NCBI GenBank assembly: GCA_030524585.1
Contig: JAUNGJ010000026.1
Coordinates: 1-40,926, forward strand
Origin: Eubacteriales bacterium
GTDB lineage: Bacteria > Bacillota > Clostridia > Lachnospirales > Lachnospiraceae
Length of the DNA stretch: 40,926 nt
Direction: 5' to 3'
The notes beneath the pieces were generated by a model, which saw only the letters and a program-made list of their open reading frames with translations, was not told the DNA's origin and searched no databases. Positions 2,889 through 25,426 of this stretch are shown here, piece after piece (within the stretch, counting starts at the first letter, position 1; every line of letters starts with the position of its first letter). A program made the position numbers and the translations under genes.

Positions 2889-2996
2889 GATAAAATATCC
2901 GACGAACAGTGATTTTATTGATTCGGCTGCGTATTACAAGAATAGAACCTGTAGACAGAAAAGAAGCATGGGAATAGGGATTCTCCTGCTTTTTTT

Positions 2997-3051: not shown

Positions 3052-3081
3052 TGTTACATCAAAAACAGGAGGGAACAGGAC

Positions 3082-3756: not shown

Positions 3757-6212
3757 AAATGGTAACCAGAACTGCTTTTGCCAATATGAAATACCATAAA
3801 AGTAAGAATATTCTGACCGGAATTGCAATTTTTTTGACTACGGTGCTTTTATTCATCGTTCCGTCCGTGGGAATGAATATAATCGACGCCCAGTTTGCCA
3901 TGGTAAATAAAGTGTATCCCACCTGGCATGCTTTGTACCGCAGCGTAGATATGGAAACTGTGGCAGGGCTGGCGGCCCACAGTAATGTTGGTATTTACGG
4001 ACTGCGAAGCGATATGGGGATGATTCCCAGTGAAAATGCTGAGATCTCCATGTGTTATATGGATGAGACCGGGCTGGAATTATACAGAATAAAGCTGCAG
4101 GAAGGAACTTTTCCCAGTGAGGAAAATGAAATTGTGGTTTCCGAGGGGATGCTTAAGGATCTGGAGATCACGGCAGATATCGGAGATACAGTCATACTGC
4201 CATTTCAGAGATATACGAAGGATGGCATGGACTATGCGAGGGAGAAAGAGTTTCGAATCTGCGGATTCCTGCCGGATGGCGATACTGCGCTGAAAAAACA
4301 CACGTATACAGCTCTGATTTCCGAGCAGTTTCTGAAAGAAGAGATACCGGAAGAAGAGATTACCTACCGTTTTTTGTTCCGGGTAGCCGGAGATGACCGT
4401 GCAAGCGTAGATGAAGTTGAAAAAAAGATTAAGGATACCGCGGAAGATTTTGGCATTTCGCAGACAGATATTGGAATCAATGATGACTACCTGATCGCAA
4501 ATTATACGGACCCTTCCGCTGTGCCGATTATTGTTATGATTATGCTTGTTGTTATGCTGGCAGGTATTATTACGATCTATAGTATATATTATGTATCCAT
4601 GACACAGCGGGTACAGGAATTTGGCAGAATGAAGGCAATTGGTGCAACCAGAAGACAGATTCGCCAGATTGTATTAAGAGAAGGACTATGTGTAGCGGCG
4701 GTTGCTGTCCCTCTGGGATTGATTGCCTCTACAATTCTGATCAGACCAATTTTGCTGTTTTTTACTGCAAGGGCAGATGATAATTCTATGGTTCAGATTT
4801 ACCGGGAAATTATTCTGAATCATGAAATATTTCTCTATAAATGGTGGATTTATCTGTTGGCAGCGGCGGTTACGCTGGTAACCGTTTATTTGTCACTGCT
4901 TATCCCCATGCGGAAAGCGTCCGCAATTTCAGAGGTGGAAGCTATGCGTTTTCAGGGAAATCAGGTGAAGGGAAAGGTCAGAAAGGGATACCGGGAGCTT
5001 ACCATTGGAAGGCTGACCAGAACCAGTATTGCAGGGAACAAGAAAAAAAGCCTGATTACGATTCTGTCCATGAGCATTACGGGAGTTTTTGTAATGGTAG
5101 TTGCCACTGCCTTATCCTGTATTAATCCTGTAGAAAGCGCGAATAATGACATCTATGGGCAGTATGAGATCAGTCTGAATGCAGAAAGCGGGAATATGGA
5201 ACATCCGGAGAGGGAGTGGAAGAATCTTATCCGGAATAATCCCCTGTCAGAGGAATTAAAAGAACAGATTGAGGGGCTGGAAGGAGTCAGAAAAGTGGAG
5301 GCATTTACCTTTCTCCTGGGAGAAACCAATCTGGAATATGGCGGGGAAAAAGCGACAGAGACAATTGCAGGGCTTCCGGAGAGCTGTTTTCAGGAGCTGA
5401 AGGCGGGAATTGTGGAAGGGGATGCGGTCTGGGAAGATCTTCTTGAAGGGGATAAGATCATAGTAAAGAAAGAGATGCTGTACTGGTATCCGGATATAAA
5501 AGTCGGTGATATGATTCGGTTCCAGTGCAGTGACGGAGTGCGGACAGAGACCAGAAATCTGGAAGTTATAGCAATCGGGGATTATCGTTTTGGACTAGGT
5601 GAGTACAATTATATGATCATGTCCAAAGAAGCGGCGGATCAGTTTCTGGATGAGGATTGTACCGGATATTTCCAAGTGATTGCAGAAGAGAATTATGATG
5701 AAGACTTGGAGGCTAAGATCAGGCAATTGACAGACAGTTCAGAGCTATTAGTGGTGGGAACCTGGAAAGAACATTTTGACGAATGGAAGCAGTCTATGAG
5801 TCTGACGCGGGGCGCATGTTATGCATTCTTAAGTATTCTCAGCATCATCTGTGTGATGAATCTGATCAATACGATGATTAACAGCATTCATGTAAGAAAG
5901 AAGGAGCTGGGCATGATGCAGGCCATTGGAATGACCGAGGCACAGCTAAAGAAAATGCTGAGATTGGAAGGAATGTTCTATACAGTGGGAACACTCTTGG
6001 TTTCCATCGGTCTGGGAAGCGCGTTAGGTTATCCGGCATTTCTGTGGATGAAGAGCGGACACTGGTTCAGCGTACAAAATTACCATTATCCGGCGGCAGC
6101 AGCAATCATTGTGGCGGTGGTGCTGGTGGCGGTACAGCTATTTCTGACGGCAGTATTATCCCATTCTGTGCAGAAAGAATCTCTGATTGACAGGATACGG
6201 TTCAGTGAATAG
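3753..6212 (+). CDS. FtsX-type ABC permease with two FtsX domains, module 1
   Basis: This 819-residue membrane protein starts in the ATGA overlap with its ATPase gene. A first membrane helix (about 20-42) is followed by a ~200-residue extracytoplasmic region. The first FtsX core (about 255-390) contains QRVQEFGRMKAIGATRRQIR. A linker, another membrane helix near 440 and a second large external region follow, then a second FtsX core (about 690-815) with VRKKELGMMQAIGMTEAQLK. The duplicated motif of the type ELG.M.AIG.T shows that the two halves are related; this is the long two-domain form and not the shorter Bce type. Together with the ATPase it forms an envelope-acting transporter under the adjacent two-component system. 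Pieces of an almost identical second copy survive at 411-771. Confidence 0.93.
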   Translation: MKMVTRTAFANMKYHKSKNILTGIAIFLTTVLLFIVPSVGMNIIDAQFAMVNKVYPTWHALYRSVDMETVAGLAAHSNVGIYGLRSDMGMIPSENAEISMCYMDETGLELYRIKLQEGTFPSEENEIVVSEGMLKDLEITADIGDTVILPFQRYTKDGMDYAREKEFRICGFLPDGDTALKKHTYTALISEQFLKEEIPEEEITYRFLFRVAGDDRASVDEVEKKIKDTAEDFGISQTDIGINDDYLIANYTDPSAVPIIVMIMLVVMLAGIITIYSIYYVSMTQRVQEFGRMKAIGATRRQIRQIVLREGLCVAAVAVPLGLIASTILIRPILLFFTARADDNSMVQIYREIILNHEIFLYKWWIYLLAAAVTLVTVYLSLLIPMRKASAISEVEAMRFQGNQVKGKVRKGYRELTIGRLTRTSIAGNKKKSLITILSMSITGVFVMVVATALSCINPVESANNDIYGQYEISLNAESGNMEHPEREWKNLIRNNPLSEELKEQIEGLEGVRKVEAFTFLLGETNLEYGGEKATETIAGLPESCFQELKAGIVEGDAVWEDLLEGDKIIVKKEMLYWYPDIKVGDMIRFQCSDGVRTETRNLEVIAIGDYRFGLGEYNYMIMSKEAADQFLDEDCTGYFQVIAEENYDEDLEAKIRQLTDSSELLVVGTWKEHFDEWKQSMSLTRGACYAFLSILSIICVMNLINTMINSIHVRKKELGMMQAIGMTEAQLKKMLRLEGMFYTVGTLLVSIGLGSALGYPAFLWMKSGHWFSVQNYHYPAAAAIIVAVVLVAVQLFLTAVLSHSVQKESLIDRIRFSE

Positions 6213-6821: not shown

Positions 6822-8188
6822 AGAAAAATCTGTCTGTAAAAGAAGCAATCGGTATTACAAGTATGCTGTTCGGTATGTTTTTCGGGGCAGGGAATCTGAT
6901 TTTTCCGGCAAAGCTGGGAATAGATGCCGGGCGGAATCTGTGGTTCGCGTACGCCGGGCTGGTTATAACGGCTGTCGGTCTGCCGCTGCTTGCGGTGGCG
7001 GCGCTGGGAATCAGCCGGAGTGAGGGAGTGCTGGAGCTTGCAGGCAAGGTTGGAAAGAAGTACGGCATGTTTTTTACAACCTTGCTTTATCTGACCATAG
7101 GCCCTTTGTTTGCAATACCGCGCTGTGCCAGCACTTCCTTTGTTGTTGGGGCGGTACATTTGCTTCCCGCGGAATGCCTTTTAGCAGCACAGGTGATTTT
7201 TTCGCTGCTCTTTTTTATTATGGTATTGGTATTTTCCCTGAAACCGGGCGGTATCATGACGTGGATTGGAAAGATTCTCAACCCGGTTTTCCTGGTGTTT
7301 TTGGGAATGCTTGTGGTTGCGGTTCTCATGAATCCCATAAATTCTATTGCAGAAGCAGTTCCGGCAAATAGTTTCTTAGGCTCAGGGGATGCATTTATCA
7401 ATGGATTTCTGGAAGGATATAATACGTTGGACGCGCTGGCCGGTCTGGCCTTTGGTATTGTAGTTGTGGATGTGGTTCGCAGACAGGGAATTGAAGAACC
7501 CGGAAGAATTGCAGCAAATACGGTAAGATCGGGAATCTTTAGCTGTGTTCTTATGGGAATGATTTATCTTTTTGTGGTGATTATTTCGGCTCAGTGTGCG
7601 GATATTTGCGCGGAGTGTACGGACGGCAGCGCGGTATTGGCTACCATTGCCAACGCTTATTTTAAGTCAGTAGGATCCGTCTTTATGCTGTTGATCGTGA
7701 CCATTGCCTGCTTAAAGACGGCAATTGGGCTGGTTACAAGCTGTTCGGAGGCTTTTGCCGGCCTGTTTCCCGGAGGCCCTTCCTATAAAATATGGACGGT
7801 TGTCTTTTGTGCCATCTCTTTTGGCATTGCAAACTTTGGACTATCGTCTATTGTGGCTTTTTGTGTACCGGTATTGCGGTTCCTCTACCCGTTAGCCATT
7901 ACATTGATTCTGCTGGCGCTGTTTGGGAAATTCTTTCATGACAGCCGGAGAGTCTATATCTGGACTACCGGTTTTACACTGATTGCGGCGGCGCTTGACT
8001 TTATGAATGCTCTGTCGGGGATATTGAAAGAGCGTCAGCTTGTGCAGGGTTCCATACTGGATGTGATTACGGATGCCGCATCACAGTATCTGCCTCTTTT
8101 TGAGTATGGCCTGGGCTGGGTGAGTCTGGCGGGAGCAGGATGTATCATTGGTCTGATATTAAACGGTATCCTGAAAGATGGAGCTTAA
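6818..8188 (+). CDS. brnQ: Branched-chain amino acid:cation symporter BrnQ
   Basis: This 456-residue integral membrane protein belongs to the LIVCS family and takes up leucine, isoleucine and valine with Na+ or H+. The family-specific N-terminus is clear: IGITSMLFGMFFGAGNLIFP, then FAYAGLVITAVGLPLLAV and GPLFAIPRCASTSF. About twelve hydrophobic segments run through to the end, and the length is normal for the family. I chose the ATG at 6818, preceded by GAGGGGAG and overlapping the acetyltransferase stop, over an in-frame ATG 39 bases upstream that lacks a good ribosome binding site. It is the last gene of the first block and converges with the LysR gene at 8231; no strong terminator is obvious in the 42 bases between them. 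Confidence 0.95.
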   Translation: MKKNLSVKEAIGITSMLFGMFFGAGNLIFPAKLGIDAGRNLWFAYAGLVITAVGLPLLAVAALGISRSEGVLELAGKVGKKYGMFFTTLLYLTIGPLFAIPRCASTSFVVGAVHLLPAECLLAAQVIFSLLFFIMVLVFSLKPGGIMTWIGKILNPVFLVFLGMLVVAVLMNPINSIAEAVPANSFLGSGDAFINGFLEGYNTLDALAGLAFGIVVVDVVRRQGIEEPGRIAANTVRSGIFSCVLMGMIYLFVVIISAQCADICAECTDGSAVLATIANAYFKSVGSVFMLLIVTIACLKTAIGLVTSCSEAFAGLFPGGPSYKIWTVVFCAISFGIANFGLSSIVAFCVPVLRFLYPLAITLILLALFGKFFHDSRRVYIWTTGFTLIAAALDFMNALSGILKERQLVQGSILDVITDAASQYLPLFEYGLGWVSLAGAGCIIGLILNGILKDGA

Positions 8189-8230
8189 GGGCGAAAATCA
8201 AAGGTAAACTTTGCTCCCGTTTCTTTGAGC

Positions 8231-9100
8231 TTATGGCAGCCTGTCTGCATTTTCCAGAAGATATTTGATGAAGTATTTACTGGCAATGGGCAGGCTGTCT
8301 TTTTCTTTGTAACCGATTGCCAGCTCCCGATAGATGGGAGGATCGGTTGGAAGACACACGATATCATAATTGGTACGGCGGAGTATCAGCTTTGCCAGAA
8401 TACCTATACCAAGTCCTGCTTCTACCATAGTCATGATCGCAAAATCATCGTGAACCGTGTATTTAATATTAGGCTCTAATCCGGCGGCATGAAAGCTTTC
8501 CAGCGGTTCGTTGTAGTGTCCTTCTTCCAGCAGGATAAAGGGATCCGTTGTCAGGGAACGCAAGGGAATCACTGTATTTTCTGCCAAAGGGTGGTTTTTC
8601 GGCAGAACCGCCAGCATTTCACCATCCTTTATTTTCACCGTCTCTATCCCTGTGACGGCAGCAGGAGTAATGAATCCAAAGTCAACAAGCCCGGTTTTTA
8701 TCCATTCTTGTATCGAAGAATAATCTCCGTCATGAAAAACAAATTGAACATTGGGATAAAGCTGTTGGAAGCCTTTGATGAGCATAGGCATCCAGTGGCA
8801 GGTGACGCTTGTGATAGTTCCTACCCGTATGATCCCGGTTTCTAATCCTTTGATTTCCAGTGCTTTCTCCTGCATTGCCCGATACTGGAGAATAGTTCTT
8901 TCAATAAACGGATATAGTTCTTTCCCTTCTAAAGTAAGCCTGGCTCCGGTACGTGAACGGACCAGCAGCTTCATGGACAGTTCATTTTCCAAAGACGCAA
9001 TCATCTGGCTGACGGAAGACTGGGTGTATCCAAGTGCTTCAGCGGCTTTTGTAAAACTTTTCATTTCAACAATCTTCTGTAGAGCGAGATAACGTTCCAT
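8231..9100 (-). CDS. LysR-family transcriptional regulator
   Basis: This 289-residue regulator has an N-terminal winged helix (about 1-60) with the LysR pattern KSFTKAAEALGYTQSSVSQM and LENELSMKLLVRSRTGARLT, followed by a type-2 periplasmic-binding-like effector domain (GIIRVGTITSVTCHWMPMLI, ENTVIPLRSLTTDPFILLEE). The start ATG at 9098-9100 is preceded on the minus strand by AAGAAAGG. It is divergent from the YbaK gene at 9224 across a 123-base region containing the element that reappears before the genes at 19936 and 20062. LysR proteins usually control the divergent gene and themselves, so these promoters are its likely targets. The effector is unknown. Confidence 0.95.
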   Translation of the reverse strand: MERYLALQKIVEMKSFTKAAEALGYTQSSVSQMIASLENELSMKLLVRSRTGARLTLEGKELYPFIERTILQYRAMQEKALEIKGLETGIIRVGTITSVTCHWMPMLIKGFQQLYPNVQFVFHDGDYSSIQEWIKTGLVDFGFITPAAVTGIETVKIKDGEMLAVLPKNHPLAENTVIPLRSLTTDPFILLEEGHYNEPLESFHAAGLEPNIKYTVHDDFAIMTMVEAGLGIGILAKLILRRTNYDIVCLPTDPPIYRELAIGYKEKDSLPIASKYFIKYLLENADRLP

Positions 9101-9106
9101 ATGACA

Positions 9107-9185
9107 AATCGCCTTTCTTAATGATAATATTAGAATTATTTGTTTTACTTATTATATATTGACGCCTATAATAAGGTCAAGAAAA
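9107..9185. promoter_or_regulatory. Divergent promoter region, copy A of a shared element
   Basis: Rightward promoter: TTTACT (9144-9149), 17 bases, TATAAT (9167-9172), serving the YbaK gene. Leftward, the region carries the leader and ribosome binding site of the LysR gene. Almost the same sequence, with the same core TATTTGTTTTACTTATT and the same promoter spacing, recurs at 19939-20016. Shared blocks, on the plus strand, are AATCGCCTTTCTTAAT, ATTAGAA-TATTTGTTTTACT, TATAAT and GTCAAGAA. It is a likely LysR-type binding region. Confidence 0.65.
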
Positions 9186-9223
9186 AGCTGACAAATACCA
9201 AAAAGACCAGGAGGTAAAGACAG

Positions 9224-9706
9224 ATGTCATATGAAAATGTAAAAAAATATTTTGATCAGGCAGGCTTGGGAGACCGGGTTGTTGTAAGGGAGCATATCGG
9301 AGATACGGTGGAGCATGCTGCACAGGCCATTGGATGTAAACCGGAGCATATTGTGAAAACCATGTCCTTTGTGCTGGACGGGAAGCCGGCGCTGATCTGT
9401 ATGGCCGGCGATGCGAAAGTCAATAACACAAAATATAAAGCCTGCTTTCATCAAAAGGCTGTCATGGTCCCGGGAAATCAGGTAGAAGAACTGGTCGGAC
9501 ATGTACCTGGGGCAGTATGCCCGTTTGCAATCTGTGAGGGAGTAAAAGTCTATCTTGATATTTCCTTAAAGCGCTTTTCTACTGTATATACAGCGGGAGG
9601 AAGCGTGAACAGTACTGTGAAGCTGTCTCTGGAAGAATTGGAGAGATTCGCAGCGCCAGAAGGCTGGATTGACGTCTGCAAAGGCTGGTTTGTAAATGGA
9701 GAATAA
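9224..9706 (+). CDS. YbaK/EbsC-type aminoacyl-tRNA deacylase-like protein
   Basis: This 160-residue protein covers the whole YbaK/aminoacyl-tRNA editing domain. Recognisable blocks are HAAQAIGCKPEHIVKTMSF (with the conserved lysine of the family), KPALICMAGDAKVN, PGAVCPFAI and VYLDISLKRFSTVYTAGGS. Relatives hydrolyse mischarged tRNA (for example Cys-tRNA-Pro or Ala-tRNA-Pro) in trans, or act on related adducts; the substrate of this clostridial branch is not readable. AGGAGGT lies just upstream of the ATG. It is a single-gene unit: its own promoter at 9144-9172 and a terminator at 9741-9787 enclose it. The divergent LysR gene probably regulates it. Confidence 0.9.
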   Translation: MSYENVKKYFDQAGLGDRVVVREHIGDTVEHAAQAIGCKPEHIVKTMSFVLDGKPALICMAGDAKVNNTKYKACFHQKAVMVPGNQVEELVGHVPGAVCPFAICEGVKVYLDISLKRFSTVYTAGGSVNSTVKLSLEELERFAAPEGWIDVCKGWFVNGE

Positions 9707-9740
9707 TCGTAGAGAAATCAATCTTTAAGATTAAAGAGAT

Positions 9741-9787
9741 TGCGGGATAAAGGAGTGTAAGTGAAAGTCCTAATCCCGCATTTTTTA
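9741..9787 (+). terminator. Rho-independent terminator after the YbaK gene
   Basis: The outer stem TGCGGGAT (9741-9748) pairs with ATCCCGCA (9773-9780), with further inner pairing AGGA/TCCT, and is followed by TTTTTT. It closes the YbaK transcript and isolates the envelope operon that starts at 9983. The remaining ~100 bases up to the operator boxes at 9889 show nothing recognisable. Confidence 0.85.
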
Positions 9788-9888
9788 TATGCGCCGAGTG
9801 CGCAGTTATTCCATTTTTTTGAATTCACCACTTGATATTGTGAGGGATGAAGATGCAGAGTACAGGAGAATGGCGCAAGGCTGGTAAG

Positions 9889-9941
9889 TGACGAAATTCT
9901 CACCGAAAAGTCACCGAAATGTAAGCGTAATACTCTAACAT
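9889..9941 (+). promoter_or_regulatory. Three tandem 11-bp boxes plus -10: regulated promoter of the polyprenyl synthase operon
   Basis: Boxes TGACGAAATTC (9889-9899), TCACCGAAAAG (9900-9910) and TCACCGAAATG (9911-9921) lie end to end. They are followed by TAAGC, nine variable bases and a -10 TAACAT (9936-9941). There is no separate -35; the boxes occupy it. The same arrangement with identical spacing occurs at 14410-14462. Eleven-base direct repeats are the usual layout for OmpR-family regulators, and the regulator at 12750 is encoded in this operon, so autoregulation is likely. Confidence 0.75.
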
Positions 9942-9982
9942 ATAAGCTAAAATGATCACTGAGCTTTCAGAGGAGGAGTATT

Positions 9983-10963
9983 ATGATAAACGTTGAGGAT
10001 GTGCCGGGACTTAAGCGAGACTTGCAGATGGTAAATATGCATATGGAGCATTTGTGCCGGTCAAATAACAGGTACATACAGGAAATGCTGAACTGGGTCT
10101 TGCGGCAGCGGGGCAAGCAGATCCGTCCAATTCTGACTCTGCTTTGCGCGAGGCTGAAGGGCAGAGCTGCCGATGCGACGGAGATTGCGGCGGTGGTTGA
10201 ACTGTGTCATACGGCTTCTTTGATCCACGATGACGTGATCGATGAAGCGGACACCCGCAGGGGGCAGTTATCCGTGCAGAAAAAGTTCGGAAAAGAAATG
10301 GCAATTTATGCCGGAGATTATATCATTTTTTCGGCGATCCAGAAGAATGAGCTGAGGAACAGATCCCGGTATGGCAGGGTGTTTGGTAAACTGGAAGCAA
10401 TGTTTGATGGAGAAATCAATCAGTTTGTTTACCGCTACAATACGGAAATTACGGAAGAGATCTATCTTGAAAATATCCGCGGCAAGACTTCGGCGCTGTT
10501 TTGCATTGCCTGTGAAGCCGGAGCCTGTGCGGGAAAATGTGACGAGAATGAAATGCTTGCGGTGGAGCAGTTTGCAGAAAAATTCGGCCTGATGTTTCAG
10601 CTTCGGGATGATCTGCTGGACTTTGTGTCTACGGAGGAGTTGTCTAAAAAGACGATTCACAATGATTTCTGGTGCGGATATTATACCCTTCCGGTCATCC
10701 ATGCATTTTCCGACGCCGATAATGGAGCAAGATTAAAGGAAATTGCAGGGAATATTAAGAACGGCCTGCAGGATGAAGATACCGACAAAAGAATCACGGA
10801 ATTGATCCGGGGGTCCAATGGATTTCAGTACACCCTGACAGAAATAGACCGATATGCCAGTGAGGCAAAGAGAAGTCTGGCCGTGTTTCCAGGCTCTGCT
10901 GCACGAAAAAAGCTGCTGAATCTGGTGGATTCGCTGCAGGCGAGCGCCCATGGGACCGTGTGA
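9983..10963 (+). CDS. Long-chain polyprenyl (heptaprenyl/octaprenyl-type) diphosphate synthase
   Basis: This 326-residue trans-prenyltransferase has both aspartate-rich motifs: DDVID (83-87) in LIHDDVIDEADTRRG and DDLLD (about 209-213) in FQLRDDLLDF. The GKQIRP isopentenyl-diphosphate binding site lies near residue 44. It condenses isopentenyl diphosphate units into a long all-trans polyprenyl diphosphate, normally for menaquinone side chains or other lipid carriers. AGAGGAGGAG precedes the ATG. It leads an operon with a membrane protein, a phosphoesterase and a two-component system, and its promoter carries boxes shared with an ABC exporter. This points to a dedicated, stress-induced isoprenoid lipid rather than a housekeeping quinone. 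Chain length and product are inference. Confidence 0.92.
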   Translation: MINVEDVPGLKRDLQMVNMHMEHLCRSNNRYIQEMLNWVLRQRGKQIRPILTLLCARLKGRAADATEIAAVVELCHTASLIHDDVIDEADTRRGQLSVQKKFGKEMAIYAGDYIIFSAIQKNELRNRSRYGRVFGKLEAMFDGEINQFVYRYNTEITEEIYLENIRGKTSALFCIACEAGACAGKCDENEMLAVEQFAEKFGLMFQLRDDLLDFVSTEELSKKTIHNDFWCGYYTLPVIHAFSDADNGARLKEIAGNIKNGLQDEDTDKRITELIRGSNGFQYTLTEIDRYASEAKRSLAVFPGSAARKKLLNLVDSLQASAHGTV

Positions 10964-11514
10964 TGAAGAGCGAAAAAAGGTACTCATTCTGGTCGCTGGC
11001 GGTGATCTTTTTCGGAATGAGTCTGGCGGGATGGCTGTGGGAGGTCAGCCTTCATCTGTTTGCAGGGGGAGGTTTTGTGAACCGGGGATTTCTTCATGGC
11101 CCGTGGCTTCCTATCTATGGCTTCGGCAGCGTACTGATCGTAACGCTTTTTTACAGACTGCGCTGCAAGCCGCTCCTGGAATTTCTGGCGATCATCCTTC
11201 TTTGCGGAGGCATTGAATATTGCATCTCATGGCTGCTGGAAAAGCTGTACCATGGAATGAAGTGGTGGGATTACAGCGGTTATTTTTTGAATGTAAACGG
11301 GAGGATCTGTGCAGAAGGGCTGCTGGCCTTTGGAGCGGGAGGAATGCTGCTGGTGTATGTTCTGGCGCCGTTTCTGGATCAGTGTTCGAAGCGGATACCC
11401 CGAAAAGTCCTGGTGCCGGTATGTCTGGCTCTGACTTTTGTTTTCTGCGTAGATTTGATCTATTCTGTGGGGATTCCCAACACTGGAAATGGGATCACCA
11501 GACATGGTTTGTGA
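10963..11514 (+). CDS. CmpB-like integral membrane protein (putative ABC-transporter type IV family)
   Basis: This 183-residue membrane protein has about five hydrophobic segments and the conserved features of the PF06541-type family: N-terminal SLAGWLWEVSLHLF, GGGFVNRGFLHGPWLPIYGFGS, and GGIEYCISWLLEKLYHGMKWWDYSGYFLNVNGRIC. The family is common in clostridia and its function is unproven despite the transporter label. Conserved Trp, Glu and Arg residues facing the membrane suggest a lipid or enzyme role. The start ATG overlaps the stop of the synthase gene (TGATG at 10961-10965), with no clear ribosome binding site, so translation is probably coupled. Placement between a polyprenyl synthase and a phosphoesterase makes involvement in polyprenyl-lipid handling plausible, as inference. 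Confidence 0.85.
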   Translation: MKSEKRYSFWSLAVIFFGMSLAGWLWEVSLHLFAGGGFVNRGFLHGPWLPIYGFGSVLIVTLFYRLRCKPLLEFLAIILLCGGIEYCISWLLEKLYHGMKWWDYSGYFLNVNGRICAEGLLAFGAGGMLLVYVLAPFLDQCSKRIPRKVLVPVCLALTFVFCVDLIYSVGIPNTGNGITRHGL

Positions 11515-11533
11515 ATGAAGGTGGGAAAAGATT

Positions 11534-12706
11534 ATGCTTGCTGTTTATCTGGCGCCGTTTTATATTATAGTAAACAGTTATCTGCTGTTTCGGATCCACA
11601 AATGGCTTGGCGTGTGTCATGTGCTGTTTGGAAAATTATGGATGCGGATGATCATTAGTCTGGTTTATGTATTTCTGGCGGTTACTCCGCTGATCGCCTT
11701 TTTCCTGCCGGCAGGAGGGCTAAGAAGAATCCTGATGCTGACCGGCAACTACTGGCTGGGGTTCCTTCTTTATCTGGTTCTGGCAGTTCTTGCCGCTGAT
11801 GTGGTCTGCCTGTTCCGGTTCCTGATTACCAGAAAGAGGATCAGGCGCTCTGCTTTGTGGGGAGGAATCTGCGCGGGACTTGTAATCCTGGTCAGTCTGT
11901 GGGGGATCTGGCAGGCCCGGGACATCCATGTGACGCCCTATGAGATCACGGTTGCAAAGGACGGGGGAGCCCTGGATGATCTGAATGTGGTACTGATTGC
12001 GGACCTGCATCTGGGATATAATATTGGCACCGCCCGGATGGCTGATATGGTAGAGAAGATCAATGAACAGAATGCGGATCTGGTGGTGATTGCCGGGGAT
12101 ATCTTTGACAATGAGTATGAGGCCCTTGACGATCCGGATAAGCTGGCGGATATTCTGCAGGGGATCCAATCGAAATATGGTGTCTATGCCTGTTACGGGA
12201 ATCATGATGTGGAAGAAAAAATTCTGGCCGGCTTTACCTTCGGCGGAAGCGGAAAGAAAGAGAGCAGCAGACAGATGGATGGGTTTCTGGAAAAAGCGGG
12301 CATCCGTCTGCTGAGAGATGAAGCGGTATGGATCGCCGACAGCTTCTATCTGTGTGGCAGGGCGGACGCGCAGAAGCCGGGGAGGGGAATCCGCACAAGA
12401 AAAACCGCTGACCGGCTGGCAGAAGAGCTTGACACCGGGCGTCCGGTTATTGTGGCAGAGCATGAGCCGCAGGACTTTCAGGAGTTAGCTGAGTGCGGCA
12501 TAGATGTGGCTTTGTGCGGACATACTCACGACGGACAGATGTTTCCGGCCAATCTGATCATGAAATTTCTATGGGAAAATTCCTATGGATATCTGAAGAA
12601 GGATACCCTGCATACGATTGTGACTTCAGGCGTCGGCCTTTTCGGACCGAATATGCGGGTCGGTACGATCGCAGAAATCTGCCGGATCAAAATTCACTTT
12701 CAATAG
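11534..12706 (+). CDS. Membrane-anchored calcineurin-like metallophosphoesterase
   Basis: This 390-residue protein begins with four or five hydrophobic helices (about 1-140) and continues with a complete calcineurin-like catalytic domain. The metal-ligand blocks are IADLHLG, AGDIFDN, GNHDVE, VAEHEP and CGHTHDGQMFP, ending with SGVGLFGPNMRVG, as in the YkuE/YaeI-like group. Related enzymes hydrolyse phosphoester or pyrophosphate bonds, some of them on lipid-linked substrates. The operon position after a polyprenyl diphosphate synthase makes dephosphorylation of a polyprenyl pyrophosphate an attractive guess, but nothing in the sequence proves it. The active site would sit close to the membrane; the side depends on topology. 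AAGGTGGG is near the ATG. Confidence 0.92.
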   Translation: MLAVYLAPFYIIVNSYLLFRIHKWLGVCHVLFGKLWMRMIISLVYVFLAVTPLIAFFLPAGGLRRILMLTGNYWLGFLLYLVLAVLAADVVCLFRFLITRKRIRRSALWGGICAGLVILVSLWGIWQARDIHVTPYEITVAKDGGALDDLNVVLIADLHLGYNIGTARMADMVEKINEQNADLVVIAGDIFDNEYEALDDPDKLADILQGIQSKYGVYACYGNHDVEEKILAGFTFGGSGKKESSRQMDGFLEKAGIRLLRDEAVWIADSFYLCGRADAQKPGRGIRTRKTADRLAEELDTGRPVIVAEHEPQDFQELAECGIDVALCGHTHDGQMFPANLIMKFLWENSYGYLKKDTLHTIVTSGVGLFGPNMRVGTIAEICRIKIHFQ

Positions 12707-12749
12707 GCGGTATTCTGACCGGATCAAATATAGAGGATGGTGAAGATCA

Positions 12750-13436
12750 ATGAAACAGATTTTTTTAGTGGAGGATGACAAGGAGATTGCAAGGAATCTG
12801 GCGCGGCTGCTTCATTCGGAAGGGTTTACTGTCATTCATGCTGCAACCCAGCGGGAGGCCATTTCCCTGATCGCCGGACAGCCCTGCGATCTGGCGCTGG
12901 TAGATATTTCCCTGCCGGATGGCAATGGGTTTACGATTTGCACAGAGATTAAGCAGACATGGAAGATTCCGGTCATATTTCTGACGGCGTCGGGAGATGA
13001 GTCCAGCGTGGTTACCGGGTTGAATATGGGAGCGGAGGATTATGTGGTCAAGCCCTTTCGTCCCCGGGAACTGATCGCCAGGATCCGGGCCGCTCTGAGG
13101 AAATCGGAGCCCTCTTTATCTGTATTTGAAATCGGAGGACTTCAGGTGGATACGGCCAGCGGCGTTGTGAAAAAGGACGGCAGAGAGGTGTATCTTTCCG
13201 CGCTGGAATACCGTCTGCTGCTGGTATTTGTCAACAATCCGAGAAATATTATAACGCGGGATCAGCTTTTAAATGAGTTATGGGATGCGGCAGGCGAATT
13301 TGTTACGGATAATACGCTGACCGTATATATTAAGCGTCTCAGGGAGAAGATTGAGGATCATCCGGCCAGACCGCAGATCATTTTGACCGTCCGCGGAACC
13401 GGATACCGGTTAGGAGGCGGCCATGTTTCGGAATAG
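12750..13436 (+). CDS. OmpR/PhoB-family response regulator, module 2
   Basis: This 228-residue regulator has a complete receiver: E8-D9-D10, phospho-acceptor D52 in LALVDISLPDG, FLTASGDE, and the lysine in YVVKPFRP. The winged-helix domain (about 128-223) has SALEYRLLLVFV, ITRDQLLNELWD, the recognition-helix block TDNTLTVYIKRLREKIED and ILTVRGTGYRLG. It follows the phosphoesterase gene by 43 bases within the same operon and overlaps the kinase start by 14 bases. The tandem 11-bp boxes at 9889 and 14410 are its most likely targets: one precedes its own operon, and the other precedes the ABC genes just downstream. Close relatives occur in Bce-like peptide resistance systems. Confidence 0.95.
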   Translation: MKQIFLVEDDKEIARNLARLLHSEGFTVIHAATQREAISLIAGQPCDLALVDISLPDGNGFTICTEIKQTWKIPVIFLTASGDESSVVTGLNMGAEDYVVKPFRPRELIARIRAALRKSEPSLSVFEIGGLQVDTASGVVKKDGREVYLSALEYRLLLVFVNNPRNIITRDQLLNELWDAAGEFVTDNTLTVYIKRLREKIEDHPARPQIILTVRGTGYRLGGGHVSE

Positions 13437-14412
13437 AGAGATTTGGCGGTTTTTCGTGGTGTTTATGATAATAGCTGCTGTCATGGCCGCCGCCGGATTT
13501 GTGATCCATCCGGCAGCCGGAGTCATGGCGCTTATTGCCGCCGCCGTTTTTGGGGCGGTATTTTTTATATTTACCAGAGCCAGATACCAGCGCATTGCTG
13601 GGATCGCAGAGCAGATTGACCTTGTGCTTCACAATGCGGAGCATTTGTATATCAGTGAAGCGGAGGAAGGAGAGCTTGCCATTCTGGAAAGTGAGATTAC
13701 GAAGATGACACAGCGCATCCGGCAGCAGAACGAGGCGCTCAGGAGGGAAAAGGAGCACCTTGCAGAGTCCCTTGCCGATATTGCGCATCAGCTCCGGACT
13801 CCGCTGACCTCGGCGAACCTGATTTTGTCCCTGCTGGAGAAGAATCCTGACGAGGACGAGAGAAAGGAGCTTCTGTGGGAAACGGAAGAATTGTTTGCCC
13901 AGATGGAATGGCTGATCAATTCACTGTTGAAGCTGTCCCGTCTGGATGCGGGGATCGTGGTTTTTCAGAATGTACAGGTGGATGTAAAGAGTCTGATCGC
14001 CGCTGCCGTGCATCCGCTCCGGATTCCCATGGAGCTGCACGATATTACCCTGCGGACAGAGGTGCCGGAGGGCATGTCTTTACAGGGGGATTTCAGCTGG
14101 CTTTCGGAGGCGGTGTCAAACATTCTCAAGAATTGCATTCAAAGCATTGGTGATCATGGGAGTATTGAAATTCACTGTGAGGATAACCTGCTGTTTGATG
14201 AGATTACCATTCATGACAGCGGAGAGGGATTTAAAAAGGAGGACCTGCCGCATCTGTTTGAACGGTTTTACCGGGGAGAAAACAGCGGGGCCGCCGGATA
14301 TGGAATCGGACTTGCACTCTGCAAAACGATTATTCTGCGGCAGGGAGGCACGATCACGGCAAAAAACCATCCTCAGGGAGGCGCCGTCTTTTGTATTCGT
14401 TTCCTAAAGTGA
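13423..14412 (+). CDS. Sensor histidine kinase with two adjacent membrane helices, module 2
   Basis: This 329-residue kinase has two membrane helices (about 8-28 and 32-51) with almost nothing between them, so it has no external sensor domain. This is the intramembrane-sensing layout, in which the kinase usually reads the state of a partner ABC transporter. A HAMP-like linker and coiled coil (52-115) precede the H box ADIAHQLRTPLTS with H122. The ATP-binding domain shows SNILKNCIQSIGDHG, HDSGEGF, LFERFYRG and AGYGIGLALCKT. The stop codon (14410-14412) lies inside the first regulatory box of the next promoter. The partner transporter is probably the ABC pair at 14545-17774. Confidence 0.94.
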   Translation: MFRNREIWRFFVVFMIIAAVMAAAGFVIHPAAGVMALIAAAVFGAVFFIFTRARYQRIAGIAEQIDLVLHNAEHLYISEAEEGELAILESEITKMTQRIRQQNEALRREKEHLAESLADIAHQLRTPLTSANLILSLLEKNPDEDERKELLWETEELFAQMEWLINSLLKLSRLDAGIVVFQNVQVDVKSLIAAAVHPLRIPMELHDITLRTEVPEGMSLQGDFSWLSEAVSNILKNCIQSIGDHGSIEIHCEDNLLFDEITIHDSGEGFKKEDLPHLFERFYRGENSGAAGYGIGLALCKTIILRQGGTITAKNHPQGGAVFCIRFLK

Positions 14413-14462
14413 CGAATCTCTCATGGAAAAGTCACGGAAATGTAAGCAGAAGATTATATCAT
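14410..14462 (+). promoter_or_regulatory. Second copy of the three-box promoter, upstream of the module 2 ABC genes
   Basis: Boxes TGACGAATCTC (14410-14420), TCATGGAAAAG (14421-14431) and TCACGGAAATG (14432-14442) are followed by TAAGC, nine variable bases and a -10 TATCAT (14457-14462). This is position for position the same layout as 9889-9941. The first box begins within the stop codon of the kinase gene. A GC-rich inverted repeat (14483-14501) lies in the leader before the ATG at 14545 and could influence expression, but its loop is too small to call an attenuator. Confidence 0.75.
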
Positions 14463-14544
14463 GTGAGTAGGTTCGGAGGAAGGGCTTTCCCCGGGGAAGC
14501 CGGGAGGTACTCTGAACAGGATCAAAAGCAAGGAGGCTCACATT

Positions 14545-15234
14545 ATGGATTTTTTAAAGGTTGAAAATTTGTGTAAAGTCTATGGCAAGGCGGAGAATCA
14601 GGTGATTGCCCTGAATCATGTTTCCCTTACGATTGAGAAAGGGGAGTTTACGGCGATTATCGGTCCTTCCGGTTCCGGTAAATCCACACTTCTGCATGCC
14701 ATTGCCGGGGTGGATATGCCCACAAGCGGAAAGATTTATCTGGACGGGCAGGATATATACGCCGGGAACAGCGAAAAGCTTGCCATTTTCCGCAGACGCC
14801 AGGTAGGGCTGATCTATCAGTTCCACAACCTGATCCCCACATTGAATGTGGTGGAAAATATTACCCTGCCGATTCTGATGGACAAACGGAAGGTCAACAA
14901 AGAGCGGCTGAATGATCTGCTGGATCTGCTTGGGCTGCAGGAGCGAAAAGACCATCTGCCCAACCAGCTTTCCGGAGGCCAGCAACAGCGTGTGGCCATC
15001 GGGCGGGCGCTGATGAATGCGCCTCAGGTATGCCTGGCCGATGAACCCACCGGAAGTCTGGACAGCAAGAATGGACACGAGATTATCCGGCTGCTGAAAG
15101 AGAGCAATAAAAAGTATGGACAGACGCTGCTTTTAGTAACCCACGATGAGAATATTGCGCTGCAGGCAGACCGTATCATTACCATCGCAGATGGAAAAGT
15201 GGTGCGTGACGAGAGGCAGGTGGCGCGGTCATGA
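14545..15234 (+). CDS. ABC transporter ATP-binding protein (BceA/MacB-type), module 2
   Basis: This 229-residue ATPase contains Walker [11 protein letters not shown] loop [11 protein letters not shown], signature [15 protein letters not shown], Walker [14 protein letters not shown] and switch LVTHDE. The Q-loop region and the LDSKNG extension match transporters that work with FtsX-type permeases against antimicrobial peptides or lipid-targeting compounds. AAGGAGG supports the start. The stop overlaps the permease start (ATGA, 15231-15234). Expression probably depends on the three-box promoter 80-135 bases upstream, placing it with the polyprenyl synthase operon. Confidence 0.95.
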
Positions 15235-17774
15235 ACATCTTTAAAAAGGTTGCCCTGCAGGGACTAAAAAAGAACCGTACCCGCACGCTGGTTACCATTG
15301 TGGGCGTTATGCTGTCGGCGGCATTATTTACAGGCGTATCTACATTTGCTGTTTCCCTGCAGGATTATATGATAAAGGGCGCGGCTGACAAGTACGGCGG
15401 ATGGCATGTGGAACTGCCGGAGGGAGATGCGGAGATGGCGGCACAGGCAGAGCAGGATGACCGCGTGGCGGAGGTGGTGTCCCTTCAAAATCTGGGCTAT
15501 GCCAGATTGGAGGATGGAAAAAATGAGAATAAACCCTATCTGTTTCTTTCCGGGTGGGACCAGAAAGCTTTTGATACGCTGCCGGTGAAGCTGATCTCCG
15601 GAAGACTTCCGGAAAACAGTGGAGAGGTACTGGTCCCCGCTCATCTTGCGGCAAACGGCGGGGTAGAAATCGCTGTGGGAGATACCATCAGCCTTGCGGT
15701 TGGCAGGCGTATCAGCGGAGGCGAAGTGCTGGGACAGCACAATCCCTTTCCCGTTAAAGAAGAGACCCTGGTGACCACAGAGAACAGGACATATACGGTG
15801 GTGGGAATCTGCCAGCGCCCGGCAATTGAGGAATTTAGCGCTCCCGGTTATACGCTGGTCACAACGGCAGATACTGCTGATGCGGACAGCCTTTCGGTAT
15901 TTATTACCTTAAAAAATCCCTATCAGCTTCACGCTTATCTGAAAGATCTGGGAGCGGATGTGGATTCTGTTTTGAATGATGATCTTTTGCGTTTTATGGG
16001 GCTTTCCGGAGAAAAAACGATAACGATCCTGTTATTTGCCATCTGTGGGATTCTCATAGCGCTGGTAGTGGTTGGTTCCGTATTCCTGATCTACAATGCG
16101 TTTCATATTTCCCTGAGCGAACGGACCCACCAGTTTGGGATTCTTATGTCAGTGGGAGCCACGGCAAGGCAGCTTCGGGGATCGGTTCTGTTCGAGGGAC
16201 TTTGTATTGGCGCTGTGGGGATTCCCCTTGGGATTCTGGTGGGACTTCCGGGCATTAAGCTGGTACTGTTTTTGGTGGAAAAGAATTTTAAAAATGTCAT
16301 GTATGACAATGTGCAGCTTGAGCTGGTGGTGTCAGCGCCGGCTATCGCGGCGGCTGTCGTCTTAAGTCTTGTCACGATCCTGATTTCCGCATATATTCCG
16401 GCAAGGAAGGCGGCGGGGATGCCGGTTATGGAGTGTATCCGCCAGACCAATGAGATCAAGGTGGAGGCAAAGAAGCTGAAGACCTCGCGGCTGGCGCAGC
16501 GCCTCCTGGGATTGGAAGAAATGCTGGCGCTTAAGAATTTTAAACGGAATAAGCAGCGCTACCGCAGTATTATTTTGTCGCTGACCTTTAGTGTCGTGCT
16601 GTTTGTTTCCGCCAGCAATTTCAGCAGTTATCTGAATCAGGTGGCAGATCGTTCTGTTGAGGTAGTGGAAAATTATGATCTTGTTTTTTCTTCTGGTGAC
16701 ATGGAGGAAAGCGAGATGCTTCAGCTTTATGATGAGCTCAAAGATACGGATGGGGTTACGGCAAGCGCCTATCAGGCGGATGTGACCTATCCCTGCAGGA
16801 TTGACGCCGGTAAGCTTCCGGAACAATTCTTTGATACGTTCGGCGAATTTCTGGATTATGACGGCGAAAGCCAGCAGATCGACGCGATGCTGGATGCGGT
16901 GTTTGTAGATGAGGGCACGTATGAGAGCTTTCTGAAAAGTCTGGGTCTGTCCGAGGATGAATATAACGGGCAGGATGACCGGATCATCATGGCAGGATGG
17001 GTGGAAGGGTATTTGTATATGCAGGAAGAACCGATGCAGATCACGCTTTCCAGTGACAGCGGAGACAGGGTAAAGAATGTCTGGGCAACCTTTGTAAATG
17101 ACTATCCGGATCTGCTGCCGGCAGAGGCGGGGAGTGAGTTCCGGGGATATTCGCTGATGCTGATTGTGCCGTATGAGTACAAATCAGGATTTGATGAGCT
17201 GGGTGTGACCGCAGCGTCCACGCTGGGCATGACCTTTGAATCGGATAATCCAGGCGGGACCAAATCCCAGATGAAGTCCATCCTTGATGCAAGCGGCATT
17301 ACCGTAAGTTACAGCTTTTACAATCTCTATGAGATCCTGGAGCAGAACCGCAATATGGAATTTGTTGTCAATCTGTTTGCAGCAGTATTTACGGTGATGA
17401 TCACACTGATTTCCATTGCGAATGTCTTTAACACGATCTCCACCAATATCAGGCTGCGAAGGCGCGAGCTTGCCATGCTGCGTTCCGTAGGAATGTCTGA
17501 GCGCGGATTTAATAAAATGCTGCGTTTTGAATGTGTGCTGTATGGAGCCAGGACCATGCTGTGGAGCCTGCCGCTTTCTTTGCTGATGACCGGCCTGATC
17601 TACGAAGGCATGTCTGCCGGGGCAGACTTTGAGATCCGTTTTATCTTTCCATGGGAAAGCATCGGTATCAGTATCCTTGGCGTATTTCTGATCGTATTTA
17701 TTACCATGCTGTACGCCGCCGGCAAAGTGAAAAAAGAAAACATTATTGACGCTCTGCGGGATGAGATGACGTAA
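15231..17774 (+). CDS. FtsX-type ABC permease with two FtsX domains, module 2
   Basis: This 847-residue permease is organised like the one at 3753: an N-terminal membrane helix (about 20-42), an external region of ~200 residues, a first FtsX core (about 260-400) with LSERTHQFGILMSVGATARQ, a helix near 450, a second large external region (about 475-700) and a second FtsX core (about 710-840) with LRRRELAMLRSVGMSERGF. It is a distant paralogue, not a recent copy, of the module 1 permease. The external regions may bind the antibiotic or the lipid-linked precursor. It probably signals to the helix-only kinase at 13423. The next gene, a glycan polymerase, follows after 28 bases. Confidence 0.93.
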   Translation: MNIFKKVALQGLKKNRTRTLVTIVGVMLSAALFTGVSTFAVSLQDYMIKGAADKYGGWHVELPEGDAEMAAQAEQDDRVAEVVSLQNLGYARLEDGKNENKPYLFLSGWDQKAFDTLPVKLISGRLPENSGEVLVPAHLAANGGVEIAVGDTISLAVGRRISGGEVLGQHNPFPVKEETLVTTENRTYTVVGICQRPAIEEFSAPGYTLVTTADTADADSLSVFITLKNPYQLHAYLKDLGADVDSVLNDDLLRFMGLSGEKTITILLFAICGILIALVVVGSVFLIYNAFHISLSERTHQFGILMSVGATARQLRGSVLFEGLCIGAVGIPLGILVGLPGIKLVLFLVEKNFKNVMYDNVQLELVVSAPAIAAAVVLSLVTILISAYIPARKAAGMPVMECIRQTNEIKVEAKKLKTSRLAQRLLGLEEMLALKNFKRNKQRYRSIILSLTFSVVLFVSASNFSSYLNQVADRSVEVVENYDLVFSSGDMEESEMLQLYDELKDTDGVTASAYQADVTYPCRIDAGKLPEQFFDTFGEFLDYDGESQQIDAMLDAVFVDEGTYESFLKSLGLSEDEYNGQDDRIIMAGWVEGYLYMQEEPMQITLSSDSGDRVKNVWATFVNDYPDLLPAEAGSEFRGYSLMLIVPYEYKSGFDELGVTAASTLGMTFESDNPGGTKSQMKSILDASGITVSYSFYNLYEILEQNRNMEFVVNLFAAVFTVMITLISIANVFNTISTNIRLRRRELAMLRSVGMSERGFNKMLRFECVLYGARTMLWSLPLSLLMTGLIYEGMSAGADFEIRFIFPWESIGISILGVFLIVFITMLYAAGKVKKENIIDALRDEMT

Positions 17775-17802
17775 TCAGAGCAGGAAGGGAGTGGAACAGT
17801 AG

Positions 17803-18534
17803 ATGAAAAGGAAGCACCCTGTCAGAAGATTCATAAAAAGTATGCTTGCGATTTTGCTGCTCATAGCAGTTGCCGCCGCCGTATTCTTCGGGGTCAAAGG
17901 CTATCGGATGTATCAGGATGCCATTGCCGCGGCTTCACTGGAAGACAGAGTGAACCAGGTTCGCAGTGAAGAATATTTTACGGATTATTCGGAATTGCCG
18001 GAATTTTATGTGGATGCGGTCATTTCCGTGGAGGATCACAGATTCAGGGAGCATCCGGGAATCGATCCGATTGCTGTGGGACGCGCCCTGTGGACGGATC
18101 TTAAGACGCTGTCTTTCAGGGAAGGCGGAAGCACGATTACCCAGCAGCTTATGAAAAATCTGCTGTTTACACAGGAGAAAACCATAGAACGGAAAGCGGC
18201 GGAGGTATTTGCCGCGCTGGATATGGAAGCAAACTACAGCAAAGACGAGATTTTTGAACTGTATGCAAATACTGCTTACTTTGGCTGTGGTTATTACGGG
18301 ATCTACGCGGCGGCGGACGGATATTTTGGTAAACCACCGGCAGAATTGACGGACTATGAGTCGGCAATGCTGGCAGGGGTTCCCAATGCGCCGTCAGAAT
18401 ATTCGCCGGAGGTGAATTTAGAACTGGCTTCCCAGCGGGTAGTGCAGGTGCTTGAGAGTATGGTGAGAAACAAAATTCTCACACAGGAAGAAGCAGACCG
18501 GATACAAGACAGCGGGCCGGTATCCGGTCAATAA
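17803..18534 (+). CDS. Monofunctional peptidoglycan glycosyltransferase (GT51)
   Basis: This 243-residue protein has an N-terminal membrane anchor (about 12-32) and a GT51 domain with every diagnostic motif: VISVEDHRFREHPGID with the catalytic Glu, GGSTITQQLMKNLLF, ERKAAEVFAALDME, KDEIFELYANTAYFG with the second catalytic Glu, and GYFGKPPAELT. It polymerises lipid II into glycan strands on the outer face of the membrane. There is no transpeptidase domain, and the length fits monofunctional MtgA/SgtB enzymes. It follows the permease gene by 28 bases, with AGGGAG upstream, and is probably co-transcribed with the ABC genes. A stress-induced polymerase would help finish wall synthesis when lipid II is attacked. 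Confidence 0.94.
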   Translation: MKRKHPVRRFIKSMLAILLLIAVAAAVFFGVKGYRMYQDAIAAASLEDRVNQVRSEEYFTDYSELPEFYVDAVISVEDHRFREHPGIDPIAVGRALWTDLKTLSFREGGSTITQQLMKNLLFTQEKTIERKAAEVFAALDMEANYSKDEIFELYANTAYFGCGYYGIYAAADGYFGKPPAELTDYESAMLAGVPNAPSEYSPEVNLELASQRVVQVLESMVRNKILTQEEADRIQDSGPVSGQ

Positions 18535-24671: not shown

Positions 24672-24757
24672 GGATGACCGACTATAAGAGATGAAAGAAA
24701 TAAAGGTGGTATAATCCGGGCAAATCGTCTATAATGGTCTCTATAGGAGAGATTATC

Positions 24758-25426
24758 ATGCATATATTGGTTGTAGAAGATGAACCGGTTATACGGAATG
24801 AATTAAAAATATTATTAGAGAACGCCCTGTATCGGGTGTCTGTGCTGGACAGGTTTGATGCTGTTTTAGAGCAGGTTAAGAGTAAGAAGCCGGATTTGGT
24901 GCTGATGGATGTAAATCTTCCAGGCATATCCGGCTTTGATATTTGTACGCAGATTCGCGGTCAGATGGACGTCCCGGTGATTTTTTTGACCAGCAGGACA
25001 GATTCTATGGATGAACTGACAGGAATTTTAAAAGGCGGAGATGACTATATTACGAAACCTTATCAGGCGCCGATTCTGTTGGCGCGGATCGGCGCAGTCC
25101 TGAAACGGACAAAGGGCGCAAAGACAAAGGAAGTGACACAGTTTACCCGGAAGGGAGTGGAGTTAGACGTTTCCGGGTGCCGTCTGTCATATCAAGGAGC
25201 AAACGTGGAGCTTACAAAGAATGAGATGAAGATACTGTATCTGTTGTTCTGTCATAAGGGAGAATTCGTTGCCCGGATGGATCTGATCGAATATCTGTGG
25301 GAGAACCAGATATTTATCGATGACAATACCTTAAGCGTGCATATTACCAGAATCCGGGACAAGATGAAGCAGATTGGAGTTTATGATTTTATTGAGACCA
25401 GGAGAGGAATGGGGTATCGGATATGA
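24758..25426 (+). CDS. BceR-like response regulator, module 3
   Basis: This 222-residue OmpR-family regulator has E7-D8 in the acidic pocket, D51 as phospho-acceptor in LVLMDVNLPG, FLTSRTDSMDE and the lysine in YITKPYQAP. The winged helix is at about 125-220 (LTKNEMKILYLLFCHKGEFV, LIEYLWENQIF, DDNTLSVHITRIRDKM, TRRGMGYRI). The DNTLSVH recognition-helix sequence and the partner kinase type make it BceR-like. I chose the ATG at 24758 because TAGGAGAG precedes it; an in-frame ATG at 24734 has no site. Two TATAAT boxes (24710-24715 and 24730-24735) lie just upstream as possible promoter elements, with weak -35 regions. The gene overlaps the kinase gene by four bases. Confidence 0.93.
   Translation: MHILVVEDEPVIRNELKILLENALYRVSVLDRFDAVLEQVKSKKPDLVLMDVNLPGISGFDICTQIRGQMDVPVIFLTSRTDSMDELTGILKGGDDYITKPYQAPILLARIGAVLKRTKGAKTKEVTQFTRKGVELDVSGCRLSYQGANVELTKNEMKILYLLFCHKGEFVARMDLIEYLWENQIFIDDNTLSVHITRIRDKMKQIGVYDFIETRRGMGYRI

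Follow-up and report, generated by a model that had tools for sequence, protein, structure and literature searches.

The described systems that come closest to the locus reported here are the detoxification modules of the Bce type, among them BceRSAB, PsdRSAB and NsrRK-NsrFP, whose kinases depend on the transporter for signalling, and two-component systems of cell wall stress such as VraSR, which has a scattered regulon and is not known to possess a dedicated transporter or to share an operon with isoprenoid genes. In Bce-type modules, as described in PMC3023708, the kinases are intramembrane-sensing, with two helices and a linker of 3–11 residues, and the permeases possess ten helices with one large loop between the seventh and eighth transmembrane helix (TM7 and TM8). 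According to the respective accounts, VraR of S. aureus raises the monofunctional glycosyltransferase MGT (PMC9380581), CroRS of E. faecalis regulates isoprenoid and wall genes (PMC10952268) and the sigma-M-controlled ytpAB genes of B. subtilis connect envelope stress with trans-C35 isoprenoid lipids, with ties to bacitracin and BceAB (PMC8144471, PMC7038271). Here we analyse a module of eight genes on contig JAUNGJ010000026.1 of assembly GCA_030524585.1, a stretch of 40,926 nucleotides (the window) from a probably gut-dwelling Lachnospiraceae bacterium. It encodes, in this order, a polyprenyl diphosphate synthase, a CmpB-family membrane protein and a membrane metallophosphoesterase (together called the trio), a response regulator, a histidine kinase, an ABC ATPase, its permease and a monofunctional GT51 polymerase. 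The initial annotation of this DNA had proposed one regulon in which an intramembrane kinase and an ABC exporter are combined with synthase, CmpB protein, phosphoesterase and GT51, and our analysis supports this. Co-regulation of the trio with the sensor-ABC set is well supported, and the trio very probably stands under the control of the module's own regulator.

The module resembles the VraSR regulon in that a wall-stress two-component system raises a monofunctional GT51 (PMC9380581), CroRS in the tie of such a system to isoprenoid flux (PMC10952268) and ytpAB in the reach of envelope stress to trans-isoprenoid lipids (PMC8144471, PMC7038271). As far as these accounts go, CroRS raises genes of the mevalonate pathway and the sigma-M regulon a consumer of heptaprenyl diphosphate, whereas in the module the synthase itself lies under the stress box. 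Control of GT51 enzymes and of isoprenoid genes by stress is therefore a known theme; no printed account of such an operon was recognised in the open-licence PubMed Central literature, and the operon is new as far as the open papers searched go.

The evidence for a common control begins with the two promoters. Promoter 1, upstream of the synthase gene, and promoter 2, upstream of the ABC genes, are identical in 36 of 41 bases, with an alignment score of 57 against a best score of 25 among 1000 dinucleotide shuffles. As the shared 41-base block begins at the last codon and the stop codon of the kinase gene, the synthase promoter seems to be a duplicate of the junction between kinase and ABC genes. 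The whole assembly (2.82 Mb in 115 contigs, 91.8% complete, the window being contig C97) was searched with a 27-base pattern built from both box sites, allowing up to three mismatches. Two matches were obtained, both of them in the module, one before the synthase and one before the ABC genes; the same pattern read backwards gave none in the assembly at this threshold. Within the window, where 0.01 matches were expected for a shorter box pattern, three were obtained, one of which is the first box in an overlapping register.

Related systems carry the box as well. We designate as type-A the window-like core of regulator, kinase, ABC ATPase and permease, and as type-B the distantly related sensor-ABC set of a second lineage. 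Of 21 related type-A systems, 20 have the box 5' of their ABC gene, with 2–7 mismatches to the synthase box, and in each of these 20 none of 200 shuffles was as good. The 21 systems comprise 19 of the loci L105–L124 together with L086 and L059; L118 was omitted because its contig starts at the ABC gene. The exception is the most divergent system, L124, whose 11 mismatches were equalled by 16 of 200 shuffles. The conserved box is best regarded as a phylogenetic footprint of the site to which the regulator is predicted to bind.

In addition, the trio occurs next to a second, different sensor-ABC set. A protein scan of bacterial genome contigs yielded seven loci with a synthase 70–72% identical to that of the window. 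In six of them synthase, CmpB protein and phosphoesterase follow in the same order at 68–72% identity; the seventh, L036, holds the synthase, an ABC ATPase and a fragmented permease. A regulator-kinase-ABC set comes after the trio in five of these six trio loci (L033, L034, L035, L037 and L038). The trio is about 70% identical across the lineages, yet the adjoining regulator is about 41%, the kinase 29%, the ABC ATPase 53% and the permease 22% identical. The synthase promoter of the second lineage, with a box of another sequence (TTACAGTAATATTACAGTAAGG) and a leftover of the kinase C-terminus, is a 125-base copy of the ABC promoter of its own set (81.6% identical in L034). A third copy of this promoter, likewise with a remnant of the kinase tail, lies 5' of a glyoxalase-like gene (L034, 681–780), suggesting that the regulon has grown by promoter copying. 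Since the second-lineage copies are near identical (L033 and L034 share 97.8% over 17.7 kb), they were counted as one lineage and the window as the second; there are two independent cases of a trio with a sensor-ABC set, which is no accident of one strain. Culturable commensals with the second-lineage module are Mediterraneibacter agrestimuris DSM 111629 and Blautia caecimuris DSM 29492.

Second-lineage loci contain further genes. Between phosphoesterase and regulator, L034 encodes a lone receiver domain (118 amino acids) and a lipoprotein-like protein of 187 amino acids with no Pfam match (12971–14131); both genes are whole in L033, L034, L037 and L038. In L035 (Blautia caecimuris), whose transporter part was taken from L056 on the same contig, more than 6 kb of other DNA separate the lipoprotein gene from that of the receiver domain (7650–14285). 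The reading frame shifts near the C-terminus of the phosphoesterase in three copies (L037, L038 and L039). Locus L040 in genome G136 combines synthase, lipoprotein and a type-B set with the same promoter type; CmpB protein and phosphoesterase were not found in the 16 kb examined there. Genes for DUF218 membrane proteins, which we take to be ElyC/SanA-like, are found near type-B loci, namely directly 5' of the synthase in L040 (1279–2301), between kinase and ABC gene in L087 (4934–6028) and in L037 (6469–7500). The gene before the type-A set in L086, for which a DUF218 protein had been guessed, encodes a GGDEF protein instead. Decayed copies were also noted: pieces of a permease in L036 (11262–13120), a GT51 remnant in L117 (8450–8620) and GT51 genes without their N-terminal part in L055 and L056.

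That eight genes of these families lie under the same box promoters, as the initial annotation had it, was confirmed for the coordinates, for the Pfam matches, each above cut-off, and for the two boxes (Table 1). Adjacent genes overlap or are at most 43 bases apart, except for the 132-base gap 5' of the ABC ATPase gene, which contains promoter 2.

Table 1. Positions of the genes and promoters of the module in the window
Feature	Position	Strand	Evidence and remarks
Promoter 1	9886..9926	+	Block in common with promoter 2; box TCACCGAAA-AG-TCACCGAAA-TGTAAGC at 9900-9926
Trans-type, long-chain-like polyprenyl diphosphate synthase (IDS), predicted	9983..10963	+	PF00348 (polyprenyl_synt), E 6.5e-56
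CmpB-family membrane protein	10960..11514	+	PF06541 (ABC_trans_CmpB), E 2.5e-44; 4 hydrophobic segments
Membrane metallophosphoesterase with four N-terminal helices and a catalytic domain predicted to face outward	11534..12706	+	PF00149 (Metallophos), E 1.9e-13
OmpR-type response regulator	12750..13436	+	PF00072 (Response_reg) and PF00486 (Trans_reg_C)
Intramembrane-sensing histidine kinase, two helices, 3-residue linker	13423..14412	+	HisKA and HATPase_c; hydropathy
Promoter 2, 5' of the ABC genes, from the last codon and stop of the kinase	14407..14447	+	Box at 14421-14447
ABC transporter ATPase, MacB/LolD-like	14545..15234	+	PF00005 (ABC_tran), E 7.4e-38
Duplicated FtsX/MacB-type permease, two large outer domains (~222 and ~245 residues)	15231..17774	+	FtsX (x2) and MacB_PCD; hydropathy
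Monofunctional GT51 peptidoglycan polymerase, one N-terminal helix	17803..18534	+	PF00912 (Transgly), E 2.7e-59; without transpeptidase domain

With Bce-type modules the locus shares an OmpR-type regulator, a two-helix intramembrane kinase, an ABC ATPase, an FtsX-family permease and a box before the ABC genes. The kinase has the layout of Bce kinases, with helices at residues 10–28 and 32–50; among 31 solved kinases matched, BceS ranked 27th with a weak E of 7.6e-10. The permease, unlike BceB, has large loops of 222 residues (between TM1 and TM2) and 245 residues, in seven segments called by hydropathy (eight in the second-lineage permease), which amounts to about eight helices with two outer domains. 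At E <= 0.01 it matched YtrF and MacB alone among solved structures and not BceB, and the top NCBIfam scores of the ABC ATPase were LolD and MacB, both under their cut-offs. A canonical Bce module in the same window (24734–29427), made up of regulator, kinase (two helices joined by 9 residues), ABC and BceB, served as an internal control: its BceB (27337–29427) shows ten helices with a loop of 263 residues after the seventh and matches the BceB structure 7tcg with E 7e-19. The view of the locus as an enlarged Bce-type module was therefore abandoned. Judged by its architecture, the permease is not BceB-like, and GT51 and the lipid trio come in addition. A third regulator-kinase-ABC-permease set lies at 1051–6212 of the window; its permease has the same layout with two outer domains, and its kinase a 73-residue loop between the helices.

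The synthase contains both DDxxD motifs, at residues 83 and 209 by the first base of the match. In enzymes of this type, a first motif of the form DDxxD instead of DDxxxxD, together with a small residue five positions before it, goes with a long-chain product. The window synthase follows this rule, its first motif being HTASLIHDDVID (DDxxD with alanine five before), while the other synthase of the assembly reads HTYSLVHDDLPAMD (DDxxxxD). Its closest solved structures are named octa-, hepta- and decaprenyl synthases, and it stays under every NCBIfam cut-off listed, for example 189.4 bits against 456.55 for HepT (TIGR02748). The enzyme is classed as trans-type and long-chain-like. The proposal that it makes a lipid carrier found no support, as it belongs to the trans family PF00348, and UppS (PF01255), the cis enzyme for the undecaprenyl carrier, is encoded by one separate gene on contig C80 of the same assembly. 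The concern that it might be the sole menaquinone synthase did not materialise: no UbiA-type prenyltransferase (MenA, PF01040) was matched in the assembly, which is 92% complete in round figures, and all 14 of 14 control genomes gave a match. With UppS encoded separately and UbiA not found, it is unlikely that the product serves as wall carrier or as quinone tail.

A tree of the synthases unites those of the window, the second lineage, L036 and L040 in one group (100/99), to which the three orphan synthases (L041, L042 and L104) do not belong; the position of the window inside this set-linked group is left unsettled by the tree. Of 397 genomes sampled from the family, 6 contain the enzyme at E <= 1e-70, and of 11 genomes of the genus, 1 does so at E <= 1e-60. 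Plasmids gave no match at E <= 1e-60, and phage records gave 16 at E <= 1e-30, all below 60% identity. The GC content of the module (0.49–0.515 against 0.44–0.48 upstream) was set aside as a sign of transfer since other parts of the window are as high (0.518). For an empty-site comparison, ybaK-like genes are present in 8 of the 11 genus genomes (its own included); the congeners' copies were not taken as the same site because they are just 48–50% identical.

The small CmpB membrane protein has strongly conserved polar residues, and 67 of 184 positions are invariant in an alignment of 10 sequences that includes the window and three near-identical ones. A profile from this alignment gave nothing but chance matches to solved structures (best E 1.4). 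In the phosphoesterase, D157-x-H159, GD188-189, GNHD222-225, H310 and GHTH329-332 are invariant in 22 aligned rows, presumably the metal-ligand pattern of the superfamily; the catalytic motifs of both synthase and phosphoesterase are thus intact in the window. Its four N-terminal helices with positive inner loops would, by the positive-inside rule, place the catalytic domain outside the cell. The profile of the phosphoesterase alignment matched SbcD (E 2.5e-6), LMO2642 and Mre11 weakly among solved structures, and Pfam returned Metallophos and Metallophos_2 alone, with no BacA or PAP2 domain. No close relative was found in viral contigs.

At E <= 1e-60 the phosphoesterase is present in 74 of the 397 genomes. 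Among 20 of its neighbourhoods (the window's excluded), the CmpB protein adjoins it in six, the whole trio is present in L064 and GT51 adjoins it in L071; the other 12 hold none of these partners at tblastn E <= 1e-6. The six pairs of CmpB protein and phosphoesterase have no matching synthase or kinase nearby. In this recurrent pair (L065, L067, L068, L073, L075 and L076) the CmpB partners are large proteins of 587–641 amino acids, both of those scanned with Pfam (L065 and L076) are DUF975-CmpB fusions, and the gene order is reversed in L068.

The GT51 protein consists of a Transgly domain alone with one membrane anchor. It aligns to the glycosyltransferase domains of PBP1A and stays under the curated equivalog TIGR02070 (119.4 bits against a cut-off of 182.65). 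Proteins of this kind occur at E <= 1e-50 in 43 of the 397 genomes. From the fetched loci, excluding the window and the duplicate L061, 16 distinct matches of at least 60% identity were drawn, L055 and L056 being fragments. Seven of them lie at most 4 kb from a type-A or type-B component, as does L059 at 57% identity; among the other nine, the contig ends less than 1.6 kb upstream in two (L055 and L084). In detail, GT51 adjoins type-A sets in L059, L086 and L088 (the last without ABC genes) and type-B genes in L034 (and L052, which repeats its sequence), L053 and L087. Joint travel of GT51 and trio, considered at first, was dropped as an idea, since the tree does not separate type-A from type-B GT51 proteins.

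The core itself is widespread, the permease being found at E <= 1e-60 in 99 of the 397 genomes. When the 20 best permease loci were fetched (the window and G133 excluded), 15 contained regulator, kinase, ABC ATPase and permease and five, by the same test, ABC ATPase and permease alone. There was one GT51 remnant among them (in L117); L107 ends right after the permease, and its genome, G248, has a GT51 at the end of another contig (L084). The four-gene core is thus the ordinary system, with GT51 and the trio as add-ons.

Our preferred explanation, held tentatively and at somewhat less than even confidence, is an inducible envelope-stress module in which a peptide-stress core has been extended by the use of lipid II and by a branch for all-trans polyprenyl lipids. 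The intramembrane kinase, probably together with the two-domain ABC transporter, would sense a peptide that acts on lipids of the lipid II cycle and activate the regulator, which would bind the TCAC-repeat boxes at both promoters and raise two outputs. Through ABC transporter, FtsX permease and GT51, the peptide would be cleared from its lipid target and lipid II be used for wall synthesis. Through synthase, CmpB protein and phosphoesterase, expressed with regulator and kinase, a long-chain all-trans polyprenyl diphosphate would be made from farnesyl diphosphate and isopentenyl diphosphate (FPP/IPP) and dephosphorylated at the outer face by the phosphoesterase, while the CmpB protein may handle or move the lipid. 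We infer here the peptide signal, the binding of the regulator, the product length, the substrate of the phosphoesterase, the role of CmpB and the benefit of the lipid. The sequence evidence is best matched by a regulator-controlled stress core that has gained GT51 and, under two boxes of different sequence, the trio. The single group of set-linked synthases in the tree and the recurrent pairing of the phosphoesterase with the CmpB protein, or once with GT51, also speak for this explanation.

Several observations weigh against this explanation. The boxes of relatives differ by up to seven positions, so weaker sites escape an assembly search with three mismatches. The eight genes, presented as one group in the initial annotation, are no fixed unit, even though the trio with a sensor-ABC set does recur outside the strain: none of the 20 type-A loci contains the trio or, in view, an intact GT51, suggesting that the core works without them, and of the five type-B sets one (L034, 67% identity) shows an intact GT51 in the stretch covered. 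The GT51 of L035/L056 is a C-terminal fragment lacking the first 110 residues, L037 stops at a contig end and its genome has a fragment of this kind on another, short contig (L055), and no GT51 was found within 1.7 kb past the permease in L033 and L038. About 7.7 kb separate phosphoesterase and regulator in L035, and L039, which shares its contig with L064 (CANSCI010000001.1, 'uncultured Dorea sp.'), contains the trio without a sensor-ABC set. Finally, accumulated heptaprenyl diphosphate is reported to sensitise B. subtilis to bacitracin (PMC8144471, PMC7038271) and an E. faecalis croRS deletion strain to regain tolerance on losing its heptaprenyl synthase (PMC10952268), so that an inducible synthase alone would be expected to do harm. 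The arrangement as a trio hints that the product might be converted at once.

These points bear on other explanations as well. It is unlikely, yet deserves attention, that the synthase product is the precursor of a stress lipid (a prenyl ether lipid, a cyclised terpenoid or free polyprenol) which stiffens or repairs the membrane, with CmpB protein and phosphoesterase acting in later steps. In B. subtilis heptaprenyl diphosphate is described to feed sesquarterpenes, through YtpB of a sigma-M operon, and heptaprenylglyceryl lipids (PMC8144471), and the apparent lack of UbiA in the assembly agrees with such a use, but no cyclase, PcrB-like protein or acyltransferase is among the eight genes, homologues of PcrB and YtpB elsewhere in the genome not having been searched. 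A little less probable is that regulator, kinase, ABC ATPase and permease alone matter, as a peptide-resistance module, and that GT51 and the trio are passengers with weak co-transcription. The usual form of the core, without GT51 or trio, would be explained in this way, as would the second-lineage copies, being one near-identical and recently spread element, some without GT51, with a fragment of it alone or with broken genes. Against mere passengers stand a dedicated box copy 5' of the synthase in both lineages, whose boxes differ, a box confined to the module's two promoters in the assembly search and the intact catalytic motifs of synthase and phosphoesterase in the window.

The trans-polyprenyl (di)phosphate might also reside in the outer leaflet, where it would soak up pyrophosphate-binding peptides or act as a putative substitute carrier for MraY, and be recycled by the phosphoesterase; we consider this very unlikely. 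The CmpB protein and the apparently outward-facing phosphoesterase do adjoin the synthase, but we know of no flippase activity of CmpB proteins. Bacitracin, which is described to grip only the pyrophosphate and the first isoprene unit (PMC7038271), would bind such a lipid too, whereas heptaprenyl diphosphate sensitises B. subtilis instead of protecting it in the accounts cited (PMC7038271, PMC8144471). Improbable, if slightly less so, is a bolder version of the inducible stress module, in which a quinone-less bacterium under peptide attack makes an all-trans long-chain polyprenyl lipid that replaces or shields the undecaprenyl carrier, with CmpB as translocator and the outward-facing metallophosphoesterase as a polyprenyl diphosphatase unrelated to BacA/PAP2. 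Were this true, a swap of sensor sets in which the promoter copies change accordingly would mean that selection keeps the lipid pathway under the control of wall stress.

Stress induction of a long-chain trans-prenyl synthase would contradict what B. subtilis and E. faecalis have taught. Should the induction be real, the lipid would have a novel protective use, or else phosphoesterase and CmpB protein would alter its fate, and testable functions would follow for PF06541 and for a membrane metallophosphoesterase shared by nearly a fifth of the sampled genomes of the family.

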